A stretch of 64,000 nt of DNA from a virus: positions 62,001 to 126,000 of the IMG/VR virus record IMGVR_UViG_3300036820_000002. One strand, 5' to 3'. The notes beneath the pieces are model-generated. The model did not search any database. It saw nothing but the letters and a program-made list of their open reading frames with translations, and was not told where the DNA came from. The position numbers and the translations under genes were made by a program. Below, piece by piece: positions 21,608 to 44,643 of the stretch. The first letter of the stretch is position 1, and the number at the start of each line of letters is the position of its first letter.

Positions 21608-21655
21608 CAGACTCCCCCGGCGTTATTTTTGCTTTTCTTTTTACTCTTTTTTTTT

Positions 21656-22205: not shown

Positions 22206-22296
22206 ACACCTCCAGCAGGCCGGGGAAAGCGCGCGGGCATGATCATTCCCCAGCCACTTATATCACAGGTAAATGCAGGATGCAATAATTGAAGGA

Positions 22297-22723: not shown

Positions 22724-22842
22724 GATCTCTCCAGGTCCAGGAAAATGCCGCATCATAATGGATAATTCCCGGGTGCGGTTCCAGCGTGCACCAGATTAGC
22801 ATGCAGCCGCATTCCAGGATGATTCTCGCGGAGGCACCGCAT

Positions 22843-24525
22843 TCAGCGGCGCCGCCAGTCCTTGCCTGCATAGACGTGGGCTCCGGTACTGCTCCCGGTG
22901 AATGCCGCCAGCTGCTTCAGGTAGAACGAAGGGTCGGTATTGCATTCCGGGCAGCTGGGCATGTTCATCGGGCGCACATGATTGTTCTCGCAGGTGCGGG
23001 AGTAAGCCATATGCCAGCGGTTAGCACGGTCCCTGACCCTCTCCTTCTCCTGCGGCGCGATTCCTGCCCCGCAGTGCCGGCACATCTTGTCCAGCAGCTG
23101 GTTGACGTTCTCCCCGCACTCCGTGCAAGGGTAGAAGCTGTACATCTCCATGTAGCTGGCGCCACTGCGGCGGGACAGCTCGATCAGCGCCCAGATCGCG
23201 GCATCCGCGCGGTCATCGTGCTGGCGGGAGCGCTCGATCTCCGGGATCATCGCGGTCAGCTGCTTCTCCATCATCTCGAACTCGCCGACCATGTGCAGCC
23301 GTCCGGCCGCTGCCAGATGAGAGATGGATTCCGCGCGGATGTACTTGCCCTTCATCGCCGCGACGCTCTTGTAGGGGATGTTCGGGTCTTCCTTGGACAG
23401 CAGCTCCGGCATGTAGTCGCCGACGGTGTTCTCGCCGACGACCAGGTCTGCCTCCCAGCGGTGGAAGGCGCTGGCGACTACCTCCATGCACCGCTTGGGG
23501 GTACCGCGCAGGGAGAGGTCCTCCAGGATGTAGAAGTGATGATCACCGCTTTCGGCGGCCACGACGATCCCGGTCTCGTCGGAGGACTCGGAGGAGGTGG
23601 ACGCCGGGTCGATGGCCACCACGATGCGGCGCCATTCCGGTACGTCCTCGGGGTAGATGCGGTACTCACAGAAGTTCTCGGCGGAGAACAAGGCGCCGTC
23701 GGAGCCCTGCACCAGCTTGCCTTCCAGCTCCTGCTGTTCCAGGTAGGTGCCCTTGTACTGGCGGCGCAGGTCCGCCAGGGCGCCCTCGGCGAAGTAGGGG
23801 TTCTCACTGGAGGAGGCGGTGGTGATGTGGAAGCGGCGCGGGTCGGCGTTCGCCATCTCCACCAGGTCGCGGATCAGCCGCAGCTTGCTGGGGGTGGTGG
23901 TGATCATCAGCCGGGGGTCGTTGTTCTTCGGCTTGATCCGCAGCGCCGGCTTGAGGCCGTAGTCGAAGAAGCGGACGTACTTGATCATGGCCAGCTCGTC
24001 GAACCAGCAGTAGCTCAGGTTGGCGCCACGGACGGAGTCGACGTTCTCGGCGGAGAACCCCTGGATGATACTGCCGTTGCGCATCGTGATGGACAGGTTG
24101 TTCTTGTTGACTTCCCGGATCTCCCCGGGCTGCGCGTTCGCCACGATGCCGGACTGTAGGTCTTCGAAGCACGTCTTGCGCACGTGGATGTAGGTGGGGG
24201 CACAGACCCCGACGTAGATCTCCGGCTCCGACAGGGCCATCGCGATCGCCCACTCGGCGCCGGCCCGGGTCTTGCCGGTACCTCGTCCGGCCAGGCAGAT
24301 CCAGGTGGTCCAGTCCCTGGTCGGGCCGTCGCAGCCGCAGGAGTAGGTGACGCCCGTCTTGGGGTGGGTCCAGGGCAGGTGGTGGCGGGGATGATCGGGA
24401 GGCAGCTGCTTGTTCCGGGCCGCCAGCTCCCAGGGGCGCGGCTCGCTGGCGGCCCGCACGGCATGAAGCCAGCGGGCTATCTCCGCGTGGGTTTCCGGGG
24501 AGAGCTTCTTCGGGTCTTTAGGCAC
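22843..24525 (-). CDS. terL: Terminase large subunit with C-terminal zinc ribbons
   Basis: 560 residues from a GTG at 24525 (GGAGTGTGTGCC); six extra codons are open upstream. Walker A is AGRGTGKTRAGAEWA (residues 79-93) and Walker B is YCWFDELA (172-179). The nuclease part has VVAIDPASTSSESSDETG and ends with the metal-binding RQHDDRADAAIWAL. Residues 461-560 add three Cys pairs (CTECGEN, CRHCG, CPECN), a zinc-ribbon extension not usual in this family. It cuts and translocates DNA through the portal. Its probable small subunit is encoded 35 kb away. Confidence 0.92.
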   Translation of the reverse strand: MPKDPKKLSPETHAEIARWLHAVRAASEPRPWELAARNKQLPPDHPRHHLPWTHPKTGVTYSCGCDGPTRDWTTWICLAGRGTGKTRAGAEWAIAMALSEPEIYVGVCAPTYIHVRKTCFEDLQSGIVANAQPGEIREVNKNNLSITMRNGSIIQGFSAENVDSVRGANLSYCWFDELAMIKYVRFFDYGLKPALRIKPKNNDPRLMITTTPSKLRLIRDLVEMANADPRRFHITTASSSENPYFAEGALADLRRQYKGTYLEQQELEGKLVQGSDGALFSAENFCEYRIYPEDVPEWRRIVVAIDPASTSSESSDETGIVVAAESGDHHFYILEDLSLRGTPKRCMEVVASAFHRWEADLVVGENTVGDYMPELLSKEDPNIPYKSVAAMKGKYIRAESISHLAAAGRLHMVGEFEMMEKQLTAMIPEIERSRQHDDRADAAIWALIELSRRSGASYMEMYSFYPCTECGENVNQLLDKMCRHCGAGIAPQEKERVRDRANRWHMAYSRTCENNHVRPMNMPSCPECNTDPSFYLKQLAAFTGSSTGAHVYAGKDWRRR

Positions 24526-24540
24526 ACACTCCAGACATGG

Positions 24541-24574
24541 CAAGACCCCCGGGGGAAGGTTTCCGGGGGTCTTG
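24541..24574. terminator. 12-bp GC-rich stem-loop between lysin and terminase genes
   Basis: CAAGACCCCCGG pairs perfectly with CCGGGGGTCTTG across a 10-base loop. There is no U-run, so it may be an actinobacterial-type terminator, or an mRNA-processing or stability element. Confidence 0.6.
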
Positions 24575-24596
24575 CGGGGTTACGGACCCTACGGCG

Positions 24597-25262
24597 TCAG
24601 CAGCCGTCGTAGGGTCTCCACGGGGAGGTGCCGTCGAGGGCGTACGCCTTTTCGAAGGCGGCATCCTGCTCGGCGGGTGAGTAGTCGCGGGCCGGGCCGG
24701 GGAGGCCGGTGATCGCGGTCCAGGTGGTGTCCAGGAAGCCGTAGAGGCCGCTGGCCGTGGAATACGGATTCTGGGCGTCAGGATTGCCTCCCGACTCGCG
24801 GGAGATGACGCACTGCTGGAATGAGCTCATTCCTTCCGTGGGGATGGCGGCGGTACTGGCCAGGGTGGCCGCAGGGCGGTGCTGCCGTTCCTGCGGCAGC
24901 GGCCCCCGGGCGCAGCGGATGACCAGGACCTCGCCGGGGATGATGATGTTGTCGTTGTTGCCGATGACGCCCCTGTTCGCGTCGTAGAGGCCGGGCCAGT
25001 CGGCGGGGGTGCCGCAGTGGCGCGCGGCCAGCACCGACAGGGTATCCCCCGGGCGGACGGTGACGCTCTCCTGGACGGCACTCGCCACGTCGTAGCTGGC
25101 GGTGAAGCCCGCACGGGGGATGGCGGCAGCGGCGGCTGCGGGGGAATGGGACACGGCGGCAGCTCCTGCTGCCACCGCGCCGGCGGCCACGGTGGTCCTG
25201 GCGGCCCTGATGACTGGTGCTGCCTTGCCGGGACGGCGGTGCCGTCCGATGCGTGACACCAT
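24597..25262 (-). CDS. LysM-transglycosylase cell-wall lysin, Rpf-like
   Basis: 221 residues from the ATG at 25262 (CAGGAG upstream). A basic start and Ala-rich stretch (TTVAAGAVAAGAAAVSHSPA) form a signal peptide or anchor. A LysM follows at about 70-120 (VTVRPGDTLSVLAARHCG, IIIPGEVLVIR). The C-terminal 80 residues are a transglycosylase/resuscitation-factor-like domain (FQQCVISRESGGNPDAQNPY with the catalytic Glu in SRESGG, then ASGLYGFLDTTW). It likely degrades peptidoglycan for release or entry. It is followed by terminase and preceded by a small membrane gene. Confidence 0.85.
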   Translation of the reverse strand: MVSRIGRHRRPGKAAPVIRAARTTVAAGAVAAGAAAVSHSPAAAAAAIPRAGFTASYDVASAVQESVTVRPGDTLSVLAARHCGTPADWPGLYDANRGVIGNNDNIIIPGEVLVIRCARGPLPQERQHRPAATLASTAAIPTEGMSSFQQCVISRESGGNPDAQNPYSTASGLYGFLDTTWTAITGLPGPARDYSPAEQDAAFEKAYALDGTSPWRPYDGC

Positions 25263-25385
25263 ACGGGTGGAGCTCCTGATGGCAGGGTGCCCGCGCAGGC
25301 GGCGTGCGCCTGCTGCATTCCCGGGGTCACGGGGAACGGACGGGCCTGGTATCATGGCCCGTGAGGCATAGGTCCCCTGGGACAA

Positions 25386-25414
25386 GATTTACCCAGAATG
25401 ACAGCTCCCGTCAA
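25386..25414 (-). promoter_or_regulatory. Possible late promoter upstream of lysin
   Basis: TTGACG (25414-25409), a 17-bp spacer, then TAAATC (25391-25386), reading on the minus strand. The -35 is a good match and the -10 moderate. It would drive the lysin-terminase genes. A palindrome GGGCC/GGCCC lies about 35 bases downstream. Confidence 0.4.
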
Positions 25415-25437
25415 ACCTGTCACGCGTTTCCGGGAAT

Positions 25438-25695
25438 TCATCCGGTTCCCAGCGCCTCTTTCAGTGCGATCAGCGCCTCGCTGATGAGGATCAGCTGAGC
25501 CCTGGAGTAGGCCCGGGGCTGGCGTCCCTGCCGGGAGAATGACGACATCCGGATCACTCCCGACGGCTGCAGCCTGGTGATCCTGACCAGCTCGCGGAGG
25601 TCTTTCTCCGGCATGTCCAGCAGCTGCGCGGCGATGTCCAGGGGCAGGTCATCGCCGGTGATGTCGGTGAACTGGTAGCCGGCCCAGCCGGTCAT
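25438..25695 (-). CDS. Small hypothetical protein of the lysis region
   Basis: 85 residues from an ATG that overlaps the upstream stop as ATGA. The sequence MTGWAGYQFTDITGDDLPLD then AAQLLDMPEKDLRELVRITR suggests a helical domain with an HTH-like pattern (DIAAQLLDMPEKDLRELV) and a central segment GVIRMSSFSRQGRQPRAYSR. It could be a small DNA-binding regulator. No family recognised with confidence. Confidence 0.6.
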   Translation of the reverse strand: MTGWAGYQFTDITGDDLPLDIAAQLLDMPEKDLRELVRITRLQPSGVIRMSSFSRQGRQPRAYSRAQLILISEALIALKEALGTG

Positions 25696-25949
25696 CGCCA
25701 CATCCCGAAAATCAGGTGGAAGAACAGCCAGGTGAGCCCGGCCGCGAAGATACTTGCCAGAGTGTAATGCAGCCAGGTCCAGTCGGCGAAGTCGAAGGGG
25801 TTGGCCAGGCTGATCTTCTCGATGCCCCAGAACTGGTCCGAGAGGGTGTTGCGGGCGTTCACCGCGAGCCAGTAGGCTTCCGGGCCGCCGAACCCGAGGA
25901 TGAACCAGGCCAGCCAGTACCAGCCCCAGCCGCTGACACGGGGGCTCAC
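25692..25949 (-). CDS. Trp-rich two-helix membrane protein, holin candidate
   Basis: 85 residues, GTG start overlapping the upstream stop. Two hydrophobic segments (GWGWYWLAWFILGFGGPEAY; WLHYTLASIFAAGLTWLFFH) are joined by a charged loop. Size, topology and position beside the lysin fit a holin, although holins have no reliable signature. It is also coupled by ATGA to the next gene. Confidence 0.6.
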   Translation of the reverse strand: MSPRVSGWGWYWLAWFILGFGGPEAYWLAVNARNTLSDQFWGIEKISLANPFDFADWTWLHYTLASIFAAGLTWLFFHLIFGMWR

Positions 25950-26569
25950 GCTGCGGTGGGGACGCCGGGGATCCCGTCCTGCCAGACCAGCACCCAGCCG
26001 CTGAGGTGGCCGGAGTACTCCATGTGCGCGACCGGCTTGCGGCCCTGGTCATCAGTGCAGTCGCCGATGCACTGGATCAGCCCTTCCAGCGGCCTGATCC
26101 GGAGCGTGTGGCAGCGGCAGAAAGGGCAGACCGGTTCCGGCTGCCCGGGGGTGCGGGGCAGCCGGCGGGGCATCTCGGTGATGTCGAGGGCGATCTTGGC
26201 CCGGCGGGTCCAGGAGGACAGCGACCTCACCGCGATGCGCACAGAATCGTCGCAGACGGCATGAGCGAGCTGGCACAGGTTATTCACCGCTGCGGTGCTG
26301 TTCGCCCCGCTACCGCCCCGGTGGCGCACCGGGAGGCCCGCTTCCCGTTGCATCGAGGCTTCCAGCTGGCGGATCTCGGCGTGGAGATCGAGGACGGCGT
26401 CAGCGGCAGTGGCATTCCACGGCGGCTGGCTGAAGTCGAGCTTGCCTCGCCGGTGCTCGCCACCTGACGGACGGATCCCGATCACCGCTTCGAGGAGGTC
26501 CCCGAACCGGATGACGCCGTCGGCGAGAGTCCTGAGTTCTTCACGGAGCGGGATGCCGTCAGGTTTCAC
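25946..26569 (-). CDS. Actinophage hypothetical protein with zinc knuckle
   Basis: 207 residues. An N-terminal helical region (TLADGVIRFGDLLEAVIG, then WNATAADAVLDLHAEIRQLE) is followed by a C-terminal CPFCRCHTLR and a Cys pair CIGDC, probably one zinc site. This arrangement recurs in actinobacteriophage genomes beside head or lysis genes. No function is known to me. It is the first gene of a four-gene coupled set. Confidence 0.65.
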   Translation of the reverse strand: MKPDGIPLREELRTLADGVIRFGDLLEAVIGIRPSGGEHRRGKLDFSQPPWNATAADAVLDLHAEIRQLEASMQREAGLPVRHRGGSGANSTAAVNNLCQLAHAVCDDSVRIAVRSLSSWTRRAKIALDITEMPRRLPRTPGQPEPVCPFCRCHTLRIRPLEGLIQCIGDCTDDQGRKPVAHMEYSGHLSGWVLVWQDGIPGVPTAA

Positions 26570-26587
26570 CTCATGAGGATAACATTT

Positions 26588-26947
26588 TCATCCCAGGCCG
26601 TCACCGCGCAGGTTCCTCACGATGGCGACAGCCTGGGTATCTTTCCGCTGCTGGTCCGGCGGCAGTTCCCGCCACGGCCGCAGGCACGGGTGCGTCCTGG
26701 GCGTGGCACACGGGTCCTTGACCTCACCCAGGACCCAGCCCAGGGCGGTCATCTCATCCGCCCACACCTCGTGGATGGCCTCGGGACCGTATCCCTGCTC
26801 GATGAGCGCGACCCGGCGGATGACCTGCTGCCGGTGCGCCCCGGAGAGGGTCTCCCAGGGGCCGTCGGGGGCGGGATCGGCGAGTGCGATATTGAGGGCG
26901 CAGTGGGCTGCATGGACGACTTGCGCGGTCTGCTCGGCAGTCAGCAT
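26588..26947 (-). CDS. RyR-domain protein
   Basis: 119 residues, ATG start. Residues about 55-110 show the ryanodine-receptor repeat pattern: IHEVWADEMTALGWVLGEVK, then HPCLRPWRELPPDQQRKD. RyR domains are found in many phages and mobile elements and are thought to bind nucleotide-type ligands or proteins, but their job in phages is unknown. It is divergent from the metallophosphoesterase gene, with only 46 bases between starts. Confidence 0.75.
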   Translation of the reverse strand: MLTAEQTAQVVHAAHCALNIALADPAPDGPWETLSGAHRQQVIRRVALIEQGYGPEAIHEVWADEMTALGWVLGEVKDPCATPRTHPCLRPWRELPPDQQRKDTQAVAIVRNLRGDGLG

Positions 26948-26979
26948 CAGGTTCTCCGTCTCTACGCTTCTGCGGGCAG

Positions 26980-26985
26980 TATATT
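26980..26985 (+). promoter_or_regulatory. -10 element for a probable leaderless transcript
   Basis: TATATT lies eight bases before the ATG of the metallophosphoesterase gene and no ribosome site intervenes. Transcription would start at about the A of the ATG, the arrangement of actinobacterial leaderless mRNAs. Confidence 0.5.
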
Positions 26986-26993
26986 CTCAGTTC

Positions 26994-27908
26994 ATGAACG
27001 ATGCGGACCGGATAGGGATAGCAGGGGACTGGCACGGCCACGCGCAGTGGGCGGTGATCGCCATCCACGCGATGGCGGCGCTGCTGGGGGAGCACCCGCT
27101 GATCCTGCAGCTCGGTGATCTCGGGGTCTACCCCGATGACGGGCGGCGGGAGTGGATGGGGCGGACCTGGACGGAGCAGACCTTCCTGGAGGCGGTCAGC
27201 GAGGCGCTGGAGGCCTGTGACGGGGAGCTCGTGTTCATTGAGGGCAACCATGAGGACCATGAGCTACTGAAGGGGAGGGAGGCGGCCTGGCGTGATGCCT
27301 GCGACGCGTTCATGGACTGCCCGTGCGGCAGCGGTGACTATGACAGCTGCCAGGACTGCACGGCCGTATACTGCACCCGTCACGGGGACGGGCAGCTGCC
27401 CCGGCCGGTGATCATCGCGCCCAGGATCACCTGGCTGCCCCGGGGGTACCGGTGGCAGTGGCATGACCGGACCTGGCTGGCCTGCGGCGGGGCGGTGTCG
27501 GTGGACAAGCTGCTGCGCACCGAGGGCACTGACTGGTTCGCGGGGGAAGAGATCACCGATGAGGAGGAGGCGATGATCATCGCCGGCGGTCATGCCGACG
27601 TGGTGGTCAGCCATGATGCCCCTCGCTGCGTGGGATTGCAGCTGATGAGCCCTCCGCCCAGGATGTGGGAGGCGATGATCCCGGCGGCGGAGGCGCACCG
27701 GGAGAGGATGCAGCGGATCGGGGAGGGAGTGACTCCTTCCTGGTGGTTCCACGGGCATTACCACCAGACCCACTGCACTGGGGTGCGGATCGGGGAGCGG
27801 GGGGGCTGGTGCGAGGTGCGCGGTCTCCACATGAACGGGTGCGACGGGAACTGGGGCATCCTGGATCTTTCCTCGATGACCTGGCTGGAACCGGGGGAGC
27901 CTGCGTGA
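26994..27908 (+). CDS. Calcineurin-like metallophosphoesterase
   Basis: 304 residues. All metal-binding motifs are present: GDWHGH near residue 10 (D-x-H), LGDLGVY at about 40, GNHEDHE at about 83, VSHDAP at about 200 and GHYHQTH at about 255. A Cys-rich insert (CPCGSGDYDSCQDC, then CTRHGDG) at about 103-125 probably binds zinc. It hydrolyses a phosphoester, possibly a nucleic acid end or cyclic nucleotide. It is the first plus-strand gene and is coupled by GTGA to the antirepressor gene. Confidence 0.87.
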   Translation: MNDADRIGIAGDWHGHAQWAVIAIHAMAALLGEHPLILQLGDLGVYPDDGRREWMGRTWTEQTFLEAVSEALEACDGELVFIEGNHEDHELLKGREAAWRDACDAFMDCPCGSGDYDSCQDCTAVYCTRHGDGQLPRPVIIAPRITWLPRGYRWQWHDRTWLACGGAVSVDKLLRTEGTDWFAGEEITDEEEAMIIAGGHADVVVSHDAPRCVGLQLMSPPPRMWEAMIPAAEAHRERMQRIGEGVTPSWWFHGHYHQTHCTGVRIGERGGWCEVRGLHMNGCDGNWGILDLSSMTWLEPGEPA

Positions 27909-28702
27909 CCGGCGTCGTGGAGTGCGGTGAATCCTACGTTTTCCCGGTGACCGGGCAGCCGGTCCGAACCGTCACCATCGACGGCGAGCCGTGGTTCGTG
28001 GGGCGAGATGTCGCCGGAGCGCTCGGGTATACCAATCCGCGCAAAGCCGTGAGGGATCACGTTCCCGCAGGTCACCATAGGGGGAACGAATCGTTCCCCC
28101 TATCTGACCTGGGCTTTCAGGCGCAGACGGTACTGATTGATGAGCCCGGCATGTACCGGCTGATCATGCGCGCCAGCACCGCGCTTGCCGAGCGGTTCCA
28201 GGAGTGGGTGACCGCTGAGGTACTGCCCGCTATCCGCACGACGGGCAACTACAGCGTTCGGTCCGTGCAGCCGCATGTGGCGGACCTCACCACGCCTGAA
28301 GGCGTGATGGTGCTGGCCGGCCTTTACCAGGACGCCGCTCGCCGGCTTGTTGATGCTACCCGGCGAGTGGCGGAGCTGGAGCCGCGAGCGGAGGCCTGGG
28401 ATTCACTGGGAAGCGGTACTGACAGCTGGTCTCTCCGTGATGCTGCCGGCATTCTTAATCAGGACTGGCAGATAGATACCGGCCAGAATAGGCTGCTGGC
28501 CTACCTGAAGGCGCAGGGGATGATTGACCGTAACGATATCCCCTATGCCCGTTACTCACGGTATCTGACGGGATGCCCCAAGGAGTACACCTCCCCTAGC
28601 GGCAAGACGGTGACACGTCGTCAGATCAGGATCACCCATGACGGGCTTGGCTACCTGCGCCGCCGTCTTGCCGGACCTGTGCAGCTGCGGCTGCTGTCCT
28701 AG
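27905..28702 (+). CDS. Phage antirepressor, Bro-N plus KilAC-type
   Basis: 265 residues from a GTG at 27905 overlapping the previous stop. The Bro-N half shows GEPWFVGRDVAGALGYTNPR and a C-terminal ERFQEWVTAEVLPAIRTTG; the second half (SLRDAAGILN, LLAYLKAQGMI, KTVTRRQIRITHDGLGYLRR) is the KilAC/ANT DNA-binding domain. It probably counteracts a repressor or binds operator DNA. It lies 0.5 kb from the palindrome array, which is a plausible, untested target. Its stop shares a CTAG with the opposing membrane gene. Confidence 0.87.
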   Translation: MTGVVECGESYVFPVTGQPVRTVTIDGEPWFVGRDVAGALGYTNPRKAVRDHVPAGHHRGNESFPLSDLGFQAQTVLIDEPGMYRLIMRASTALAERFQEWVTAEVLPAIRTTGNYSVRSVQPHVADLTTPEGVMVLAGLYQDAARRLVDATRRVAELEPRAEAWDSLGSGTDSWSLRDAAGILNQDWQIDTGQNRLLAYLKAQGMIDRNDIPYARYSRYLTGCPKEYTSPSGKTVTRRQIRITHDGLGYLRRRLAGPVQLRLLS

Positions 28703-28881
28703 AACCGGCGGTACCTGTTCCGGCGGTACTGCCGGTTCCGGCGGGCGGTGTCTTCCGCAGATGTCGCGGCCAGGAAGATGAACGCGATGAGCAGGCAGGC
28801 CCCGGCGGGACCCCACTGGCCCATGCAGGCGCTGACGAGGGCACAGAGGAAAAGCAGTGCCGCTACTCCACCTATGAACAT
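28699..28881 (-). CDS. Small two-helix membrane protein
   Basis: 60 residues, ATG with AAAGGA nine bases upstream. Two hydrophobic stretches (GGVAALLFLCALVSACM and GACLLIAFIFLAATSA) are followed by an Arg-rich cytoplasmic tail (RRNRQYRRNRYRRF). It is convergent with the antirepressor gene. Could be a second holin or an exclusion-type membrane protein. Confidence 0.65.
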   Translation of the reverse strand: MFIGGVAALLFLCALVSACMGQWGPAGACLLIAFIFLAATSAEDTARRNRQYRRNRYRRF

Positions 28882-29009
28882 GTTGATATCCTTTCTTTTC
28901 TACGGGTAGTACAACATACCAGGGCAGCGGGATGTTCCCTGATCCCCGGTGATTGACGCCAGTCTAACCCTCTACGCGTGGAAGAGCTTTTTTTCCCTGA
29001 AATATCAAG

Positions 29010-29041
29010 CAGCCCTCTACACACGAGGGCTGTTTTTTTTT
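29010..29041 (+). terminator. Rho-independent terminator
   Basis: CAGCCCTC pairs with GAGGGCTG across TACACAC, followed by nine T residues. It ends plus-strand transcription coming from the antirepressor gene or reads as a boundary before the palindrome array. Confidence 0.85.
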
Positions 29042-29142
29042 AACAAACTGCGGCCATGCTCCTGCTGAAACTCTCCTGCAAGCGGTTGCGCGGTTTCCGC
29101 TGATTTCCTTTTCATATCCGAGGGGGCCTGACGGCATTCCCG

Positions 29143-29197
29143 GTTAACTGCGTTAACTACAGGTGAATCATCCTAACCCCAAGTTAACCGCATTAGC
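29143..29197. repeat. Two outlying copies of the 15-bp palindrome
   Basis: GTTAACTGCGTTAAC (29143-29157) and GTTAACCGCATTAGC (29183-29197) follow the same GTTAR-N5-YTAAC plan as the main array. A third copy, GTTAACGCCGTTAAC, is at 31396-31410, on the far side of the gene-free region. Confidence 0.7.
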
Positions 29198-29200
29198 TGA

Positions 29201-29239
29201 TAATTCGAACAAATGTGCGTAGAGTACATATTCGAATTA
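29201..29239. repeat. Long inverted repeat next to the palindrome array
   Basis: TAATTCGAA (29201-29209) and its exact complement TTCGAATTA (29231-29239) are separated by 21 bases. Each arm contains the palindrome TTCGAA. It sits 13 bases before the first array unit in the most AT-rich part of the window. Confidence 0.7.
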
Positions 29240-29251
29240 TTACAGCACATC

Positions 29252-29422
29252 GTTAGCAAGACTAACCTTATTCGTTAGCAAGGCTAAGAGTAATGGTTAG
29301 TGGTGCTAAGAGTAATGGTTAGTGCTGCTAACCGTTATTGTTAGCGGTGCTAAGGGGAAGTAGTTAGCAGCACTAACCTTATTTGTTAGTTATGCTAACC
29401 ATTATCCGTTAGTATAACTAAC
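29252..29422. repeat. Array of eight 15-bp palindromes, GTTAG-N5-CTAAS
   Basis: Units start at 29252, 29274, 29296, 29318, 29340, 29363, 29385 and 29408, with periods 22, 22, 22, 22, 23, 22 and 23 bp. Arms are nearly invariant (GTTAG left; CTAAC in five, CTAAG in three) while the five central bases vary. Spacing of about two helical turns puts all sites on one face of the DNA. This is the layout of a cooperative protein-binding array: iterons of an origin, a centromere-like site or multiple operators. Confidence 0.85.
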
Positions 29423-30112
29423 CTTTACCCCTGAGCGATGCTCACCGTTGACCGTGACCGCCGGAGGCGCTTGAGCTTCAAGCTCGTCACCCGTCAGTGA
29501 CTGCCCCTGACTGCCCCTGTGCGCCCCGCTGCCGGTCCGGGGTACCCGTCCTACGCCCTTCACCTCCCGAACCCGTCTGCGTGGCTGCCAGCCGCTTGCA
29601 GGGGGTACTGGGGTACTGCCCATCTCCCAGCTACGGCCGGGTTCCGCTCTCACCCGTCGGGCGTTCCTCTATTCGAGAAAACGCCCTCTGACGGTGGTCG
29701 CTCCGCTCCCCGTTTCTCTTTCTCCCCGTAACCTGAAGGTACACCGAGCCTATTGTAGACTCGTTTTTCTGCATTGACACGTAATTGCAGGTCAGCCGGC
29801 GTGTCGCGGTGTTCTGACTACCTACGTCCTCCCCTCCACGTGGTCCGCTTCCCCCACGCACTTGCGTATGGCCCTGAGAGCCTCTGTGGCGGGTCTACAT
29901 AGGGGGGCCAGTGTCATCACATCACCGAACCCCCGGTCGTCATTCTCCCTGCTCAGCAGCGTTGTGCAGGGGCACTCACGCACCACTACCCCGAGGTGGA
30001 GCTCTCCTAGTGACCGGAGTATGTACTCACGGTGATGTCAACCCCCTCTCTTTGTTACATTCCCTGGTGAGCATGTGGTGTTTCCGCAGCTCAAATATGC
30101 TGACAAGCGTAG

Positions 30113-30128
30113 TGTGACCTAGATCACA
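30113..30128. promoter_or_regulatory. CRP-type palindrome TGTGA-N6-TCACA
   Basis: TGTGACCTAGATCACA matches the CRP-family consensus exactly at both half sites. Actinobacterial CRP/GlxR regulators bind this motif. No gene starts close by, so chance occurrence or an unknown transcript must be considered. Confidence 0.45.
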
Positions 30129-31548
30129 GGGAAAGCTTTACAACCTCCTCCCACCTGGTCTTTCTTCTCATCGGTGCTGGTAGTGGACGTGGAGTACCCG
30201 GAGAGCATGTGTTACGTTTCGGGGAGTTTCACAGCACGGTCCGCCGGTTCGGGGGCCGCTTCACTCGCACGACGTAGGTTGGTGGTCCCCCGTCGGGGGC
30301 CGGACGGAAACAGCAGCGACGGCTGACAACTTCATGACGGAAAACCTAGCGGGATGCGTGGATGTGGTCGCATCGTGGTGAGCTAGGGTCACTGATCCCC
30401 CGAGAACTACGGCAACGGTCCCCTGAGAATGGCGGAACCTAGCTCCATAAATGGGTAGCGATCACGGATCTTTGCAAGTGACCCAATACGGCGTAACACG
30501 CGGGAGTAACCCCCGTAACCCTGATGTCATGGGGTTCTTGCAGGTCAAAGTCACTGTTCTGTCCGGTAGCACATGTGCAAATGTGCGCAGTACCGGATTG
30601 CTGGTGACGCACCGATACGTTAGGTAGGGATCACGTGATCCCCGGGACAGGTCGTACCTGTTCCATGCGGACCGTAAACCGGACCGGTAGGTATTCACGC
30701 TGCCGGGAGGTGACTTGTCACCTCGGAACCAATAAGGCCGGACAATCGGGTAGCACAGTCCGTCATATGCCCATTGACATGTCCAGTACGACATGCGGAT
30801 GGGGTTCTCATGAGGTGATGCTGTCTTGGCGGTAGCCAGGCACAACGGAAGGGCCGCAGCTATGCCCTTGATTCTCCCTTGTGCCTCGGCGTGAACAGAC
30901 GGAGCGGTAGGTCCCGCTCCCCCGGTAAAGCACCAGGCAGTGATACAACCACCCGACATCACACGCAGCGGGCAGGACAGTTGACAGATGCCCTGTGCCG
31001 CGTGCAACCACTCCAAGGCAGTCCGCTTACGGGACACGCCGCACGACGGAGTGGCGTTACCCGTCGCCCTGGTCAGCAGAGATTCAGGTCCCATTGTCCT
31101 TACCCGATGGGCCGGTAAAGAGTGAACATTACTCTTCCGGTTACCACTTATGACATTGCGGCTTCTTCGCTGACCAGGGACCTTCGACGGCAGTTTTCAG
31201 AGTCGCCTTACGTTCATGGTGGCTCACGGCGGCTAAGCGTTCACGCTCCCCTTCCGCATGCCGGCAGCCTTCAGTGGCTAGCGGGTGCATGCTTGCGGGC
31301 GGCTCACTGAATGCGGATTCACCGTGAGCGGCTATGTCGGCAGGGAGACTTACCGACAGCACATACACCAGCCAGCGATCATTTACGGGTCGTTGGTTAA
31401 CGCCGTTAACCGCATCCAACGACGCAGATACCACGCGGGAACGTGGTTTGGCTCACTCCTTGAACAGGTCATGACACCCTTTACGGGTGACAGGGAATGC
31501 CTGCCCGGACAGTCCAGAGTATCCACGCGGTTACGGAAAGTCACTCAG

Positions 31549-31740
31549 ATGAGAAAGGTCATCGTGCCAATTTCTTCTTCGCCGAGAGCCCGGCGTGTCG
31601 CGGTGCTGGTCATCATCACCCTGGTGATGGTAACGGGCATCGCTATCGGTCACGTCACTACGTCGCGCACCGTCACGATCGTGTGCACCCAGACCGTTTC
31701 TCACGGTCAGAGCTACCTGAATAACTGTTTTTACCGGTAA
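31549..31740 (+). CDS. Small single-pass membrane protein
   Basis: 63 residues from the ATG at 31549 (GGAAAG ten bases upstream). A basic N-terminus (SSSPRARR) precedes one hydrophobic segment (VAVLVIITLVMVTGIAIGHV), then a short periplasmic/extracellular tail with two Cys. The frame is open further upstream without coding character. It is the first gene of the long plus-strand accessory block. Confidence 0.6.
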   Translation: MRKVIVPISSSPRARRVAVLVIITLVMVTGIAIGHVTTSRTVTIVCTQTVSHGQSYLNNCFYR

Positions 31741-31760
31741 GACCACGGAAAGGAACGTGA

Positions 31761-31991
31761 ATGGTCTACCTGTTCCTGCACCGCACGGAAAGCGGCGGTA
31801 TCTGGATGCCCCGGCGTGTTGCATGGTTCATCATGCGGCACGTCCAAGGACTGGATTACATTCCTCGCACGTGCCTCGCGTACTATTCCATCGCCGATTC
31901 CCACGACGGTGCGTGCTGCTACGCGTCGTACAAGCGCGGCGACGGCACCACCATGTCAGGTCGTCAGTGGTTCCGGGGGGCCCGTGACTAA
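31761..31991 (+). CDS. Hypothetical protein
   Basis: 76 residues, ATG preceded by GGAAAGGAACGTGA. It has an aromatic-rich start (MVYLFLHRTESGGIWMPRRV) and CLAYYSIADSHDGACCYASY. No family recognised. It overlaps the next gene start by eight bases. Confidence 0.65.
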   Translation: MVYLFLHRTESGGIWMPRRVAWFIMRHVQGLDYIPRTCLAYYSIADSHDGACCYASYKRGDGTTMSGRQWFRGARD

Positions 31992-32172
31992 CCTTCAGCG
32001 CTACTCCTCGCGGGAACTACGCGCCGTGTATTACGGCGGCAACGGCTACATCGTCCGCCGTGACACCTACCCCCGCCACCGACGTCAGGTCGTCTCGGTG
32101 TCCGTAGGCGTCCGGCAGGGACTTGCCGCCCCGTCCGGATTCACCGTCTTTACCTACCGGCGGCCGGCATGA
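31984..32172 (+). CDS. Hypothetical small basic protein
   Basis: 62 residues from a GTG inside the end of the previous gene; starts TNLQRYSSRELRAVYYGGNG and is strongly basic. Coupled to the next gene by an ATGA overlap. Family unknown. Confidence 0.6.
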   Translation: MTNLQRYSSRELRAVYYGGNGYIVRRDTYPRHRRQVVSVSVGVRQGLAAPSGFTVFTYRRPA

Positions 32173-32396
32173 ACGACGCCACCGACGTCATCCTAGAGCA
32201 GGCTAGTTACCGCAACGCGGTGAACAACAGCCGCGACGGTGCTGTTACCGAGATACCCGCATGGGTGGTGATGGTCCCCGGCAGTTTTTCCGGCATTGTC
32301 TATGACCCGTCGGTGCTGCTGGACAAGCTGAGTACCCCCGGCGCCACGGCCACGCGGGTCAGGCGCTACCGGCCCGTTAACCGGAAGACGATATGA
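32169..32396 (+). CDS. Hypothetical protein
   Basis: 75 residues, ATG overlapping the previous stop and its own stop overlapping the next start, so it lies in a fully coupled run. Sequence is unremarkable (VTEIPAWVVMVPGSFSGIVY). Family unknown. Confidence 0.62.
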   Translation: MNDATDVILEQASYRNAVNNSRDGAVTEIPAWVVMVPGSFSGIVYDPSVLLDKLSTPGATATRVRRYRPVNRKTI

Positions 32397-32641
32397 CGTA
32401 TGTCAAGATCGGTGATCATAAGTGCACCGACGAAACTGTTAGCCGTGCACTAGATCATCACCAGGACACGCGGCTTATACGCGGCTGGGTATGCATCGAC
32501 GGCGTGCGGATTATCACGCTGGCCGGCGGCGAGGTGCTGCGCTTGCACACCTTGCGCGACGCCGCGTTGCTTGTTCACGGACTTGGCAGCGCGGACCATG
32601 CAATCAGGTCTGGTAAGGCGAATATCACGTCGGGAAAGTGA
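32393..32641 (+). CDS. Hypothetical protein
   Basis: 82 residues, ATGA overlap with the previous gene. Starts MTYVKIGDHKCTDETVSRAL and contains a compact beta region RGWVCIDGVRIITLAGGEVL. Family unknown; coupling supports that it is expressed. Confidence 0.62.
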   Translation: MTYVKIGDHKCTDETVSRALDHHQDTRLIRGWVCIDGVRIITLAGGEVLRLHTLRDAALLVHGLGSADHAIRSGKANITSGK

Positions 32642-32766
32642 GGAGATCATTGGACCGAGACGGACCGACGCCGCTCGCTGAGCTTCTGGAGCTAGCCTGC
32701 CCCATGGAACTTCTTGAGGCTGGCGTCATCACGTGCGGCGAATTCGCCGCGATTACCTGCCGTTAA
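32638..32766 (+). CDS. Hypothetical 38-42 residue protein
   Basis: Two starts are possible: a GTG at 32638 overlapping the previous stop, or a TTG at 32650 five bases after AGGAG. The product reads LDRDGPTPLAELLELACPME then LLEAGVITCGEFAAITCR. It is acidic and Leu/Glu-rich, with two Cys near its end. Confidence 0.5.
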   Translation: MRRSLDRDGPTPLAELLELACPMELLEAGVITCGEFAAITCR

Positions 32767-33063
32767 GCAGGAGGGCAGCCTCTGGCATGAGGAGCGGGAA
32801 ATACCCGCGTGACCGTTCAATCCGGTCACTGTCCGCCCGGCCACGCCAGAACGCGCTTGAATGCGCCGTAGGCGTGGCCGTACCACCTCTGAACAGAACT
32901 GCAAGGCTCACCCGCCCTGTTCGCCGGCAAGCGCGACGCTGTCCGGTTCATACAAGCCCACGAGTGCATCGCATTCGGTGCCGCCGACAATCCGCAACGC
33001 CAGAGAGAGCTATTCGGGCGTGTCATATTCCCCTCCGTCACCTGAAAGGACACTGACAGAGAA

Positions 33064-33450
33064 ATGACCTACACCTATTCAGAGGCTCGTGCGGCTGCTG
33101 AAGCCTACGCATGGGCACGCCACGACGCCGACCAGACGCTTACGTGCGCAAAAAACGGGCTGCGAGGTGACGGTAGCGGCTATGATTTCAGCCTGGCTTA
33201 CGCCGACGCCTGGAACGCATGGAATGCAAACACGCGTTCGTCAGTCTCTCCCCCCGGGCGGGCATGGGAGAACTGGCAGGCATCTCACGGCACGACCATC
33301 GACGCTACCCGCATCGTGATAATGAGCGTGGTGCTCACCGTCGCCTCTGGCAAGACCAACGATGAGATCGCCGATTCTGTCCGGCGTGAACTTGTCAGCC
33401 CGACTACCGGAGTGTTGTGGACGGTCAATGACGTGAGCGTGGTGACATGA
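33064..33450 (+). CDS. Hypothetical protein
   Basis: 128 residues, ATG start. N-terminus is Ala/Tyr-rich and helical (YSEARAAAEAYAWARHDADQ), later SGKTNDEIADSVRRELVSPT, a helical segment with a loop. Family unknown. The 297 bases upstream contain only an open segment (32894-33045, ending QRQRELFGRVIFPSVT) that reads like protein but has no usable start, possibly a gene remnant. Confidence 0.62.
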   Translation: MTYTYSEARAAAEAYAWARHDADQTLTCAKNGLRGDGSGYDFSLAYADAWNAWNANTRSSVSPPGRAWENWQASHGTTIDATRIVIMSVVLTVASGKTNDEIADSVRRELVSPTTGVLWTVNDVSVVT

Positions 33451-33629
33451 CCGCATACGGGTACATCGCTCTGTACGGTGAACGCCGTACGGAGCTTTAC
33501 GCGGCTAGCTTGCATGAGGCTAAGCAAAAAGCTCTAGCGCATTTCAAGCCGCCAAAGAGCAAGCGCCACCTAGTCAGCGTGCATCTGGCAGAAATTGACG
33601 GCGAGACTGTCACGCAAACCACCAATTGA
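33447..33629 (+). CDS. Small hypothetical protein
   Basis: 60 residues, ATGA overlap with the previous gene. Starts MTAYGYIALYGERRTELYAA, then SLHEAKQKALAHFKPPKSKR, a helix-rich pattern seen in many short phage proteins. It is followed by a G/C hairpin at 33648-33665. Confidence 0.65.
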   Translation: MTAYGYIALYGERRTELYAASLHEAKQKALAHFKPPKSKRHLVSVHLAEIDGETVTQTTN

Positions 33630-33647
33630 GACATCGTTAACCGCACG

Positions 33648-33668
33648 GGGGGGCATTGTCCCCCCTTT
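33648..33668 (+). terminator. Short terminator-like hairpin
   Basis: GGGGGG pairs with CCCCCC across CATTGT and is followed by TTT. It separates the small-gene run from the oxidoreductase gene. Confidence 0.5.
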
Positions 33669-33741
33669 GCCATGGGGACACGCGGTGCGTGCCTCCATGG
33701 TGAAGAGAAAAGAAGAGATACGGAAGAAAGGACTTACGTCT

Positions 33742-35085
33742 ATGGAGCCCTCACGGATAGTGGCGTCCGCCATCGATGACATCTCTGACCGCACCTTCAG
33801 CTACGGCATGGAGATGATGGCGGAACGCCGGGGGGAATTCCCCGATGACCTGGCTATGAAACTGGCCGGAATCGCCATGGTGCCCGCTGCCAGGCAGGCA
33901 TTCGATGACTACCTGTCCGCCTACTGGACCGGCCGCCAGCTCCCCGGGTTCACCGACTACGCCAAGTCGGAGGTGGTCATCGGTGACGGTCTGCACGCGG
34001 CTATCTACTGCGCGGCCCGTGCGGCGATGGGCTATTCCAAACCGTACGTGCTGGGTAAGAGCCTGGCTGAGAACACCGGCGGCGCTTTCGCGGTCGGCGG
34101 GGGCAAGCCGGTGTTCTGGCTCAACTCCCGCAGCCGCGCCGGCGGGCAAGGCTCCCCGGACCAGGGGGTGAGCCTGAACTACCTCCCCGGCGCCCCCGTG
34201 CAGCCGGACCAGATCACTCCCGGTGAGTACAGCACCAACGCTGACGTGCGGTTCGCTGTCCGTGCCGCACTCGCCCAGCACGCCATGGTGATCCCCGGCT
34301 CGGAGGTCACCGACCTGAATCAGAGTAGCAGCGCTCCCACGTGCTGGGATGTCACGTTCGGTGACCGGACGGAGACGTTCGGGCGGGTGCTAGATATGCG
34401 CGGTATCGGCACTCCGGTCTTTGACGGGTCCAACGGCAGCACCGTGATCACGTTCGCGGAATTCATGACCCGGATGGCGGGGACCTTCCCGCTGCGCGGC
34501 CTACAGCGGGTCGCGGTCATCGGCGGGGGAGACAGCGCCAAGTGCGCGGCTGAATCCCTCCTCGGGATCGCCCCGGCCACCCACATGTCAGCGACCGCGC
34601 TGGACTACGTCGGCAAAGTGGACTGGTACGCCGGCGATGACGTGATCACTACCGGCGGGTGCATGTCCTGGCGGGACGGCCGTGGCCGCTACATCCGGCT
34701 CGGGCAGTACCTGCCGGGCAACGTGTCGCAGCCGTCGCCACGTCTTCAGATGTTCACTCAGCGGGTCACCCCGACGCCCCTGGCCGGAGGGACGGTGCTG
34801 ATCGGCGAACGCAGCTACGACCTTGCTGTGGTGTGCACGGGGTCCGTGCTGCCGCCACTCGGCGGTTACGGCACGGGCAGCTTCACCCCCTACCGGGTGA
34901 ACGGGGCGGCCATTGCTCGCAGTCTCAGCGAGTTTGAGGTCTACCGGGCAGGCCCGGCGGCTGCTCTCGGTTTCAGCAGTGCCGAAATTGATTCCGGTGT
35001 GGCCAGCAACCCGGCGAACTCGGTGGCCATCTTCCGGAATGCGCCGCGCACCTACGCGCTGGGTTCGGTTCTCCCGTCCCTGTAA
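33742..35085 (+). CDS. Two-Rossmann FAD/NAD(P)-dependent oxidoreductase-like protein
   Basis: 447 residues from the ATG at 33742 (GAAAGGA upstream; an earlier ATG at 33697 is possible). A first dinucleotide fold is seen at VVIGDGLHAAIYCAARAA, about residue 75, and a second at RVAVIGGGDSAKCAAESLLG, about 255. The order (FAD fold, intermediate domain, NAD(P) fold, return DLAVVCTGSVLPPLGG) is that of flavin-dependent monooxygenases and pyridine nucleotide-disulphide-type reductases. No Cys-x-x-Cys redox pair is obvious. Substrate unknown; it could modify a nucleotide, metabolite or antibiotic of the host. Unusual cargo for a phage. Confidence 0.75.
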   Translation: MEPSRIVASAIDDISDRTFSYGMEMMAERRGEFPDDLAMKLAGIAMVPAARQAFDDYLSAYWTGRQLPGFTDYAKSEVVIGDGLHAAIYCAARAAMGYSKPYVLGKSLAENTGGAFAVGGGKPVFWLNSRSRAGGQGSPDQGVSLNYLPGAPVQPDQITPGEYSTNADVRFAVRAALAQHAMVIPGSEVTDLNQSSSAPTCWDVTFGDRTETFGRVLDMRGIGTPVFDGSNGSTVITFAEFMTRMAGTFPLRGLQRVAVIGGGDSAKCAAESLLGIAPATHMSATALDYVGKVDWYAGDDVITTGGCMSWRDGRGRYIRLGQYLPGNVSQPSPRLQMFTQRVTPTPLAGGTVLIGERSYDLAVVCTGSVLPPLGGYGTGSFTPYRVNGAAIARSLSEFEVYRAGPAAALGFSSAEIDSGVASNPANSVAIFRNAPRTYALGSVLPSL

Positions 35086-35140
35086 GACCCATCTCTCTAC
35101 GGGTGCCCAGTCACAGCTCATTCACTGAAAGGAAACCAGC

Positions 35141-35632
35141 ATGGCTATCACCACCGACAACACCACCATTAACAGCAGCGACGTGATCGCGCGGATAGAG
35201 GAACTGGAAGAGGAAACCGGGATTGAGTATGAGGTCTACCGGACCCGCAACGATGAGGTCATCGCGAGCTTCGATGTTCTCAATGAGGCAGAGAGTTACA
35301 TCAGCGAGGAGGATTACAACCCCGACCGCGTCAAGGTCCGCGAGACGGACAAGGGCGATGAGGAGGACCGCGACGAACTACGGTCGCTGCGTGATTTCGA
35401 CTCAGACGGCCGCTCCACGTTCGGCACCTTCACCTGGCAGGACGGCATTACCCTCATCAACGAGAATGGGATAGGCCAAGAATATGCCAGGGAACGCGCG
35501 GAGAGCGAGAACCCGCGCGTTGACTGGGACACGTGGCCGTTTAATCTCATCGACTGGGATTACGCCGCCACTGAACTAACAGAGGGTAACGACTACGCCG
35601 ACCTGAGCGGTGTCTCCTACTACTACCTGTAA
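35141..35632 (+). CDS. Acidic phage hypothetical protein
   Basis: 163 residues, very acidic, ATG after GAAAGGAAACCAGC. It contains SDVIARIEELEEETG and DELRSLRDFDSDGRSTFG, then LINENGIGQEYARERAESEN, ending in WPFNLIDWDYAATEL. This pattern is shared by a known actinophage family of unknown role; strong acidity may mean DNA mimicry, but that is speculation. Confidence 0.65.
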   Translation: MAITTDNTTINSSDVIARIEELEEETGIEYEVYRTRNDEVIASFDVLNEAESYISEEDYNPDRVKVRETDKGDEEDRDELRSLRDFDSDGRSTFGTFTWQDGITLINENGIGQEYARERAESENPRVDWDTWPFNLIDWDYAATELTEGNDYADLSGVSYYYL

Positions 35633-35706
35633 CGGGTCGCCTGGCCGCGCGCACCGTGAGTGACCACGGTGCGCGCCCCTGGATACCCGCGACGGAAAGG
35701 AAAGGA

Positions 35707-35907
35707 ATGAAAGACCCCCGCGCCGTCAACCGTGACGCGCAGCTAGGCCGCGCCGTCATCGACAGCCACGGCATGGTCCCCTATATCGAGATCGGCGGCG
35801 TACGCATCTACGCCCGCATCGAGAATGGCGATCTGGCTGTCATCATCGAGATGGAGCATGCCGACCGTGACGCCTTCAGTGGCGCCATCACATTCCGTCA
35901 CGGATAA
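35707..35907 (+). CDS. Hypothetical protein
   Basis: 66 residues from the ATG at 35707, preceded by GGAAAGGAAAGGA. Compact beta pattern: MVPYIEIGGVRIYARIENGD then LAVIIEMEHAD. Family unknown. Confidence 0.65.
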   Translation: MKDPRAVNRDAQLGRAVIDSHGMVPYIEIGGVRIYARIENGDLAVIIEMEHADRDAFSGAITFRHG

Positions 35908-35945
35908 TTCAGTCAGGCAGAACGGTAACAGAAAGGAAAACGTTA

Positions 35946-36245
35946 ATGATCCCTGAAAGACGGCCGGAGCTGGGGGCAATCACCCTTGACCGGCTGATAC
36001 CCGGCTGGTACTGGCAGGTAAATATCGTGACGCTGGAAATGCGTTGCGGTGACCGCTGCATTCTCGGGCAGCTCTACGGCAGTTTCCTTCGCGGAGCGTA
36101 CCAGATTCACCTTCGATGGCCACGTGAAAAGGCACTGCTCACCCTCGGGTTCTCACTGCCCTACGACGTGCCGGACGGCGAGTGGGACCTGCTCCGTGCG
36201 GCATGGGTCGCGCTGATCCTCGCAAGGAGGAACGGACATGGCTGA
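35946..36245 (+). CDS. GQLYGSY-family protein, copy 1
   Basis: 99 residues. It carries the family landmarks LDRLIPGWYWQVN, TLEMRCGDRCILGQLYGSFL, a GF dipeptide and an ending DLLRAAWVALILARR. The same plan recurs at 36238, 36714, 46290 and 55747. Such proteins are frequent in actinobacterial phages and mobile elements but have no assigned function. It overlaps the next copy by eight bases. Confidence 0.72.
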   Translation: MIPERRPELGAITLDRLIPGWYWQVNIVTLEMRCGDRCILGQLYGSFLRGAYQIHLRWPREKALLTLGFSLPYDVPDGEWDLLRAAWVALILARRNGHG

Positions 36246-36717
36246 CCCGCGTGATGTCACGCCCGCCGAACGCGGCGCGGCACTGCTTGATGAGAAGAAG
36301 CCAGGATGGGAACAGCTTATCGACCGTGACCGGCTGGACATGTCCTCCACGAACACGGACGTGCTCGGACAGCTTTACGGCAGCTACGGTGCTGGTCTTA
36401 GCCAGCTAGGCGGATCTTTGGGCGCCTACGGATTCGGCGCTGGTGGCGGTACATACCCGGAACTCACCAGGGAATGGCGGCAGCTCATCACCGCTCGCCT
36501 TGAAGGACGCCCGGACAGTTCCGCCGGGCGGCGTAGTACTCCCAAGCCGCCTAAGCAGCGTCCGCGTGAGGTCTGCCTTGACGATGACGAGCTAGCCACG
36601 GCTGTAGCCAGAGTGTGCAGGATCGGCGCCTCCGAGCCCCTGACAGAGAGCATGCGGCCCATTCTCCTCGCCGAGATCATCGCCGCCATGAAAGCAGAGA
36701 AAGGACAGCGGTCATGA
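36238..36717 (+). CDS. GQLYGSY-family protein, copy 2, with C-terminal extension
   Basis: 159 residues. Residues 1-85 carry GAALLDEKKPGWEQLID, RLDMSSTNTDVLGQLYGSYG and EWRQLITARL. A Pro/Lys linker leads to a helical tail (DDDELATAVARVCRIGASEP, LLAEIIAAMKAEK). Overlaps copy 1 and is ATGA-coupled to copy 3, so three paralogues lie in tandem. Confidence 0.72.
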   Translation: MADPRDVTPAERGAALLDEKKPGWEQLIDRDRLDMSSTNTDVLGQLYGSYGAGLSQLGGSLGAYGFGAGGGTYPELTREWRQLITARLEGRPDSSAGRRSTPKPPKQRPREVCLDDDELATAVARVCRIGASEPLTESMRPILLAEIIAAMKAEKGQRS

Positions 36718-37220
36718 CCGTGCAGACCGTACTGACATACAAAAGCGCCATCGGCACCGTCACTGATGAATATCCTGACGGCAAGCCCCCTGGCACCTAC
36801 CTCGCCATGATCGAGACGGCTATGCGGAGCGTAGGGCTTACCGGCCTGACCATGACGATCGTTCCCGAAGTGATACCGGAGGCACCCGAACCTGACCCTT
36901 ACGCCGTTCTTGCGCTGCGGGCGAAGACAGGTGCTGCACTGCTGGACTTGAAGCGGCCCGGCTGGGCTGATGAGGCAGCCGACCGTAACCTGTCGTCACT
37001 GAACATGGCATCAATCTCCAATGACATCCTTGCCCGGGTTTACGGAGATTACTACACCGGCAAAATCGCGCTCGGGCTGTCCGAGGGGGCCCAGGAGTCC
37101 GATGCGGCTGCTTTCGGCTTTTATATCCGTGACGGCAGCGTTCCGGATGTGAATAAGGGCTACCGGCTGCTCGGCGATGAGTGGCGCATTCAGGTCACCT
37201 CCCGGACGGAAGGTAGCTGA
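36714..37220 (+). CDS. GQLYGSY-family protein, divergent copy 3
   Basis: 168 residues. An N-terminal 65-residue extension precedes the family domain, which is divergent: GAALLDLKRPGWADEAADR, then SNDILARVYGDYYTGKIALG in place of GQLYGSY, and LLGDEWRIQVTSR. Loss of the core motif suggests changed specificity. Confidence 0.7.
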   Translation: MTVQTVLTYKSAIGTVTDEYPDGKPPGTYLAMIETAMRSVGLTGLTMTIVPEVIPEAPEPDPYAVLALRAKTGAALLDLKRPGWADEAADRNLSSLNMASISNDILARVYGDYYTGKIALGLSEGAQESDAAAFGFYIRDGSVPDVNKGYRLLGDEWRIQVTSRTEGS

Positions 37221-37221
37221 C

Positions 37222-37662
37222 GTGCCGCGCAAGAAGGACCTGACTGCCTCCCTTGATGACGCTACCGGGGAAGTCACCGAATACCGGCAGCTCTATGAGA
37301 ACGAGCAGAAGCTGAGACGGTCCGCCGAAAAAAAGCGTGGCGAGATAGAGCGGGAACTGCGCTATACCCAGCGTCTGCTGCATGCCCAGCGGGACAAGAC
37401 CCCTGACCGGCTGTCCGGCGCTGACAGCATGCGCGACGGGTCCGCTGTCTGTAACATCCTGGCTGTCCTGGCATCGATGCCTGCCTACCGCTACGTATTC
37501 GGGGCCCTGGCTGACACGCTGGCTGTCCGGGAGGTCGTAGCGGCTACTGCGGAGTTCCCGCAGAGCGTGCGGGACAGCAACGCGCCCGGCTCAAGGATGA
37601 GCAGGCAGGCATTCATCGCGGCTGTCAAGGGCTCCCTTAAGACCCCTGGAAATGAGGAGTGA
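37222..37662 (+). CDS. Coiled-coil hypothetical protein
   Basis: 146 residues from a GTG one base after the previous stop. Residues 20-70 form a charged coiled coil (YRQLYENEQKLRRSAEKKRG, EIERELRYTQRLLHAQRDK), followed by a small C-terminal domain. Family unknown. Confidence 0.65.
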   Translation: MPRKKDLTASLDDATGEVTEYRQLYENEQKLRRSAEKKRGEIERELRYTQRLLHAQRDKTPDRLSGADSMRDGSAVCNILAVLASMPAYRYVFGALADTLAVREVVAATAEFPQSVRDSNAPGSRMSRQAFIAAVKGSLKTPGNEE

Positions 37663-38048: not shown

Positions 38049-38070
38049 TGACGAAGCAAAAGGACAAGAT

Positions 38071-39858: not shown

Positions 39859-39861
39859 AGA

Positions 39862-40554: not shown

Positions 40555-40557
40555 GAC

Positions 40558-42380: not shown

Positions 42381-42381
42381 C

Positions 42382-44637: not shown

Positions 44638-44643
44638 GAAGCC

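Follow-up and report, generated by a model that had tools for sequence, protein, structure and literature searches.

Regular spacing at about two helical turns characterises the P1-type iteron arrays of plasmid and phage origins, whereas bacterial operators of the TetR/MarR type with the form GTTAG-N5-CTAAC consist of two sites. GOLLD and ROOL are long structured noncoding RNAs of phages, and one study (PMC12286853) records many GOLLD members of more than 800 nt, leaves the function of GOLLD open and counts few long structured phage noncoding RNAs as known. RNA-based origins are reported for the cluster A mycobacteriophages RedRock, Alma and LadyBird, in which, according to one study (PMC7157519), a noncoding RNA region lies beside repeats in the genome interior and the origin measures ~400-600 bp next to parABS.

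Here we describe a gene-free locus of ~2.7 kb (the hub) within a window of 64,000 nt that corresponds to bases 62001-126000 of the 130,268-base virus record G000. The hub carries an array spaced like P1-type iterons, but its sites are palindromic and no initiator gene was recognised nearby; half-site and spacer are those of the TetR/MarR-type operators, but the array has eight sites and no such regulator gene was identified by the hub. Compared to the RedRock, Alma and LadyBird origins the hub is longer and has no ParA. The putative RNA of its right part resembles GOLLD and ROOL as a long structured phage RNA, and the window's phage is also rich in tRNA genes (42, with 23 in L055, record 20001-40000, and 19 in L056, record 40001-60000). 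However, GOLLD and ROOL often lie near tRNA islands, whereas the hub RNA would sit at a divergent gene switch, next to the array and separated by tens of kb from the phage's tRNA clusters (hub at ~90.9-93.5 kb of G000, tRNA genes at ~32.7-44.4 kb). A search of the literature, with subscription journals mostly outside its coverage, returned no description of the hub. With confidence slightly better than even, we interpret it as a two-part locus in which an operator-like array governing divergent transcripts is combined with a long structured noncoding RNA.

The hub is a gene-free stretch at a switch in gene direction

The window had no match in a DNA similarity search against 50,697 phage records. 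Positions 28882..31544 (2,663 nt) are free of gene calls, the next largest gap in the window being 625 nt, and after retraining on the whole record (130,268 bases) with tRNAs counted as genes no gap exceeds that of the hub (2,720 nt), the second longest measuring 1,595 nt. Codon log-odds per codon, scored for 11 hub ORFs of at least 62 aa, range from -0.173 to -0.433, whereas the 74 called genes score +0.272 on average (sd 0.074). A 210-aa ORF (30462-31094, minus strand) is among the negatively scoring ones, and the ORF whose possible ATG start codon at 31551 coincides with the right end of the stretch also scores badly (-0.246). With a gap empty in gene calls and scored ORFs devoid of gene-like codon use, the original prediction that the stretch holds no credible coding frame is upheld; conservation, which might have revealed genes here, was examined and disclosed no real ones. 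A tRNA/tmRNA search of the hub was likewise negative.

The hub separates a leftward block (28699-28881 and the structural genes) from a rightward block, with the terminase gene ~4-6 kb away. Near its left end, a hairpin followed by a T run (29007..29041, plus strand), detected by a terminator scan and in the sequence, resembles an intrinsic terminator and would end a short rightward unit (26994-28702) encoding a metallophosphatase and a Bro-N/KilAC antirepressor; since the scan found 3 such elements versus 2.4 expected, this assignment is no more than suggestive. An antirepressor gene adjoining the hub fits a regulatory setting. Within that gene, 28026-28175 folds strongly on both strands (z -5.8 and -5.6) and contains the inverted repeat GGGGGAACGAATCGTTCCCCC.

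A helically phased array of dyad sites in the left part

The array (29252..29422) comprises eight dyad sites of the form GTTAG-N5-CTAA(C/G) that start at 29252, 29274, 29296, 29318, 29340, 29363, 29385 and 29408, that is, at spacings of 22, 22, 22, 22, 23, 22 and 23 nt. The pattern GTTAGN5CTAA yields 13 strand-matches versus 0.06 expected, a count reached by none of 100 shuffles, bearing out the array that had been claimed. The array motif is moreover confined to the hub, as all seven GTTAN7TAAC sites of the 130-kb record fall within window positions 29143-31410 and the reversed-pattern control gave none. Two outlying palindromic sites, GTTAACTGCGTTAAC (29143..29157) and GTTAACGCCGTTAAC (31396..31410), were found by both the palindrome and the GTTAN7TAAC scans.

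AT-rich DNA with two TTCGAA palindromes (29204..29236) adjoins the array. TTCGAA occurs 12 times in the hub of G013, four times in that of G012, three times in that of G001 and twice each in the window, G032 and G006; the hubs of G005, G044 and G045 have none. Farther right, the 9-mer GCAGGTCAG (29787..29795, plus strand), with a near copy GCAGGTCAA at 30540, is present in all six hubs compared, and CTGACCTGC is the sole 9-mer found in six of six (window, G012, G013, G006, G001 and G005), with a 16-fold enrichment over the rest. The left part thus has three recurring motifs, GTTAG-N5-CTAAC, TTCGAA and CTGACCTGC, all of which are covered by 112 nt common to G012 and G032 (73% identity, E 1.7e-16). 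Judged from these sequence patterns, the left part is likely a protein-binding region.

In our model, the left part (~28.9-29.8 kb) would serve as a DNA platform for a dimeric protein, probably encoded by the phage. Copies of this protein would occupy the eight palindromic 15-bp sites next to one another and, given the spacing of two helical turns, on the same helix face. The bound array may then switch the divergent promoters of the leftward block, the rightward block and the RNA.

Other features that had been singled out in the hub are less distinctive. The "multiple perfect palindromes" amount to five with arms of at least 7, where equally long stretches have 3.3 on average (sd 1.8), and are therefore unremarkable, while the CRP-type site TGTGACCTAGATCACA at 30113 is exact, yet has a one-mismatch expectation of 0.97, and 62 of 100 shuffles contain at least one. 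As main features of the locus, perfect palindromes and the CRP site were set aside as not exceeding chance expectation. The hairpins, too, are not confirmed as claimed: beyond the array, 150-nt pieces fold strongly at just a few positions. Strong folding of 29151-29525 on both strands is expected from palindromic DNA and so provides no evidence for RNA there.

The hub recurs at the same place in uncultivated relatives

Relatives were collected with the window's terminase protein (L050-L053), with a six-terminase alignment (32 loci) and by a motif scan of viral contigs (23 loci), in which arrays with 22-nt spacing were followed in L079 (G005) and L081 (G006), seven loci were searched whole with a looser motif, and AT-rich loci whose pairs or arrays had 21-nt spacing, L063, L070 and L076 among them, were dropped. 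An unsupervised search of 49 sequences for dyad arrays with 5-nt arms recovered GTTAG-N5-CTAAC in G005 (L082), G006 (L111 and L120), G013 (L122) and G014 (L123), and otherwise reported only L054, which belongs to the record of the window and has a different motif, and L119, with three copies of GCGCG. Copy numbers vary widely, from eight in the window and ~7 in G005, through three exact copies plus weaker ones in each of G006 and G013, to a single copy in G012 and a single variant in G032; the hubs of G001, G044 and G045 contain none. The motif scan of GTDB genomes returned 24 loci with no long array (22 with two matches, L087 and L095 with three), and the 47 loci obtained by an antirepressor protein search all lack the array. 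The metallophosphatase gave no loci as a single-protein query and nine as an alignment.

The relative G013 (135,079 bases, 35 tRNA genes) shares many proteins with the window's phage, the structural ones mostly at 40-83% identity. Its hub is split between the contig ends (1,327 nt plus 942-1,353 nt) and would measure ~2.3-2.7 kb if the record is circular; leftward genes occupy 76,640-131,120 on one side of it and rightward genes 1,354-30,888 on the other. The same switch from minus- to plus-strand genes is found in G044 (36,727-37,957) and G005, such that the place between leftward structural and rightward blocks is kept in all three; the G032 gap (98,713-100,941) likewise has minus-strand genes on one side and plus-strand genes on the other, and in G045 the core element described below lies on the minus strand ahead of minus-strand genes. 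Contigs end within the hub in G001, G006, G013 and G014 and just beyond it in G012. Because the break points differ between two nearly identical phages, the DNA at these contig ends is likely hypervariable or difficult to assemble. The two-part arrangement of the hub is conserved in uncultivated relatives, with divergent gene blocks on either side, and in this family of large phages (~115-135 kb) the centre without genes is a conserved feature rather than filler.

A putative long structured RNA in the right part

The right part contains a putative long structured noncoding RNA (30190..31549, both ends approximate, plus strand favoured). Short words occur in the same order and on the same strand in window 29441-31551, L149 18901-19821 and L148 1-1354, with 8-mer chain scores of 59.3, 75.9 and 60.7 among the pairs window-G012, window-G013 and G012-G013, none of which was reached in 300 dinucleotide shuffles each. 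Across the 21 pairs of seven hubs, the best chain z is that of L155 and L156 (23.1); the window attains 6.1 with G013, 3.6 with G005, 3.5 with G012 and 2.2 with L155, and its values with G032 (0.8) and L156 (0.6) are not significant. When gaps of at least 600 nt were compared in eight records, the hub ranked first in all five with a recognised hub (G000, G013, G032, G044 and G045). This comparison counts 39 of 40 controls, one value (5257.7) having been dropped because the random segment overlapped its own query, and as one non-hub gap reached z 5.5 and one control segment z 4.5, the window's chain z of 3.5-6.1 is not decisive alone.

Further support comes from two hairpins with compensating changes. 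Hairpin Ha (30972..30996, plus strand; loop GTTGACAGA) has a loop of the form GTTGA(C/G)AGA and a stem that differs yet pairs in relatives. The pattern GTTGANAGA with a stem of at least 6 pairs occurs three times in 2,002,558 strand-bases of 10 records, once per hub and always on the plus strand: in G000 (window 30980), G013 (857) and G012 (L149 19694). Four other hubs, those of G032, G044, G045 and G005, have no Ha. In the 25-nt alignment of the three sequences, 87.5% of the 24 cells pair, compared to 17-42% when the partner is slid by 1-3 columns, and four of the eight pairs have changed on both sides; the covariation score was reached by 5 and the count of double-change pairs by 23 of 500 shuffles. 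On inspection of the alignment by eye, Ha pairs about equally well on the opposite strand.

The second hairpin, a core element GGGCTATGCGCGGGACGGTCCCGTGACC enclosed by differing but pairing stems, was found by a pattern scan at four loci, of which L155 (in G044) and L156 (in G045) had not been among the relatives collected before. All 40 cells pair in the four records, and double changes affect two of the ten pairs; cells paired and covariation score were reached by 22 of 500 shuffles and the count of double-change pairs by 100 of 500, so that with four sequences the latter evidence is modest. Among 38 records, the core model R1 gives E values of 1e-16 or better in these four alone, the strongest hit elsewhere having E 0.0027, and it has no hit at E <=0.3 in the G032 hub. 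The window's best hit on the same strand (30339-30394; rank 2 of 22, 9.9 bits, E 0.045) is not significant alone. An unfiltered model search delimits it as a weak core candidate, CCTAGC / GGGATGCG ... TGGTGA / GCTAGG (30345..30387, plus strand), the closing stem of which (CCTAGC/GCTAGG) is fully paired.

Folding of the full-length right parts (z for plus/minus strand, 30 shuffles) is strongest in G013 (-11.6/-9.6), followed by values of -3.7/-4.3 in the window, -3.9/-2.9 in G012, -4.5/-3.9 in L155 and -3.3/-3.9 in L156. Control segments gave -0.9/-1.9 (window), +0.2/-0.6 (G013) and -4.0/-3.4 (L156), and the window's value is therefore equalled by one control segment (-4.0). In the fold predicted for G013, a helix connects the two ends, and two long helices comprise 29 and 31 pairs. 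MAFFT alignments over longer stretches of the RNA were too poor for covariation. Counts of G-U versus A-C (64:53, background 685:580) do not settle the strand. We favour the plus strand because the genes run in this direction and because all four cores retain a G-U pair that would be A-C on the other strand.

The structured noncoding RNA of the original prediction therefore gains support from collinear words, compensating hairpin changes and a constant place upstream of the rightward block; the core falls short of significance in the window. Double changes of paired positions, as covariance across homologous phages would predict, are seen in Ha and to a modest extent in the core. Searches of the hubs with Rfam 15, including a permissive cmscan, retrieved no credible family. 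The GOLLD model RF02032 has no hit at E<=10 in the 10 records, while its control gave signals in 5 of 14 genomes, all of them below the cut-off; the ROOL model RF03087 is also silent in all 10, as is the ROOL control itself, and the cmscan with all of Rfam likewise scored none. On the basis of sequence comparison, we consider the right part a probable long noncoding RNA of phages whose family is new and absent from Rfam 15.

Right of the array, transcription of ~30.2-31.5 kb would run the same way as the rightward genes and yield this RNA. A bolder proposal, possible though doubtful, is that it represents a new class of giant structured RNAs of ~1.3 kb, exceeding typical GOLLD, whose production would be switched by the helically phased array with a repressor or initiator and which would be central to replication or takeover. 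With a new RNA family located consistently next to a defined array, the locus would be experimentally tractable, as the array is a means to fish out its regulator and the RNA can be deleted.

Alternative explanations

The main rival, which we regard as unlikely, takes the hub for a replication origin, with the array as initiator iterons and a structured transcript that primes or regulates initiation. Eight sites repeated every 22-23 nt next to AT-rich TTCGAA DNA, a central position between the genome arms, the phage's own clamp, SSB and annealing protein and the absence of a Phage_integrase match in G000 are compatible with this idea, as is the noncoding RNA region reported to be needed for prophage replication in cluster A mycobacteriophages (PMC7157519). 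However, the published RNA origins described there (PMC7157519) are shorter and lie beside parABS, the hub has no DnaA box (TTGTCCACA or TTATCCACA) with up to one mismatch, and the protein scans made recognised no RepA-like or other initiator protein. GC skew was discarded as evidence for an origin since the records disagree, with a maximum near the hub of G000, a minimum near those of G013 and G045 and neither in G032. The same study describes repeat clusters beside noncoding RNA in parABS mycobacteriophages (PMC7157519), reminiscent of an array that acts as a parS-like centromere and partitions an extrachromosomal prophage; yet no ParA-type ATPase (PF13614) exceeds the cut-off in any of the eight records (controls detected in 14 of 14 genomes) and no ParA-type Walker motif occurs in the called genes of six records, which speaks against ParABS, disfavours the "partition locus" that had been suggested and leaves a centromere very improbable.

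It is quite improbable that the right half acts as DNA, forming hairpins from single-stranded or supercoiled DNA for packaging, recombination or processing of genome ends. The relatives' contigs that end in or just beyond the hub, the nearby terminase gene and a G-U/A-C test that gives RNA no advantage would agree with such a function, but the record of the window has the hub in its interior, the core's constant G-U pair would be A-C on the other strand, and the different break points of the near-identical G013 and G014 indicate that there is no fixed end. An ordinary long regulatory spacer, in which the array provides operators, the remainder is relaxed DNA and the likeness to relatives has been overread, is improbable: the window's own fold z is modest and pairs of the same motif lie beside genes reading as TetR- or MarR-like in bacteria (L106 and L110), but a spacer does not account for an Ha restricted to three hubs in 2.0 million strand-bases with paired changes, nor for same-strand chains in the window, G012 and G013. 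The two-part hub of operator-like array and structured RNA is the reading we retain. The bacterial dyad pairs are 21 nt apart (L106 2795-2830, L110 6443-6478).

Other features of the phage record

The record contains several other features outside the hub. In L055 (3325-5034, minus strand), a Hint/intein domain interrupts the single-strand-annealing protein, and the phage's proteins also include a tRNA nucleotidyltransferase, an RNA-repair-type nucleotidyltransferase, PTH2 and an RF-1-type protein. In L054 (12089-13970), a 510-aa gene adjoins a dyad repeated every 72 nt (13616-13904), and the Cas12f-like TNB and transposase families match the protein set of the L054 part, probably through this gene. 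A protein encoded at window positions 61577-62974 matches a PHROG 'transposase' family (1e-78), with a perfect 18-nt tandem repeat upstream of its gene (60848-60883), and a perfect 24-bp tandem duplication lies within a predicted gene at window positions 39571-39618.
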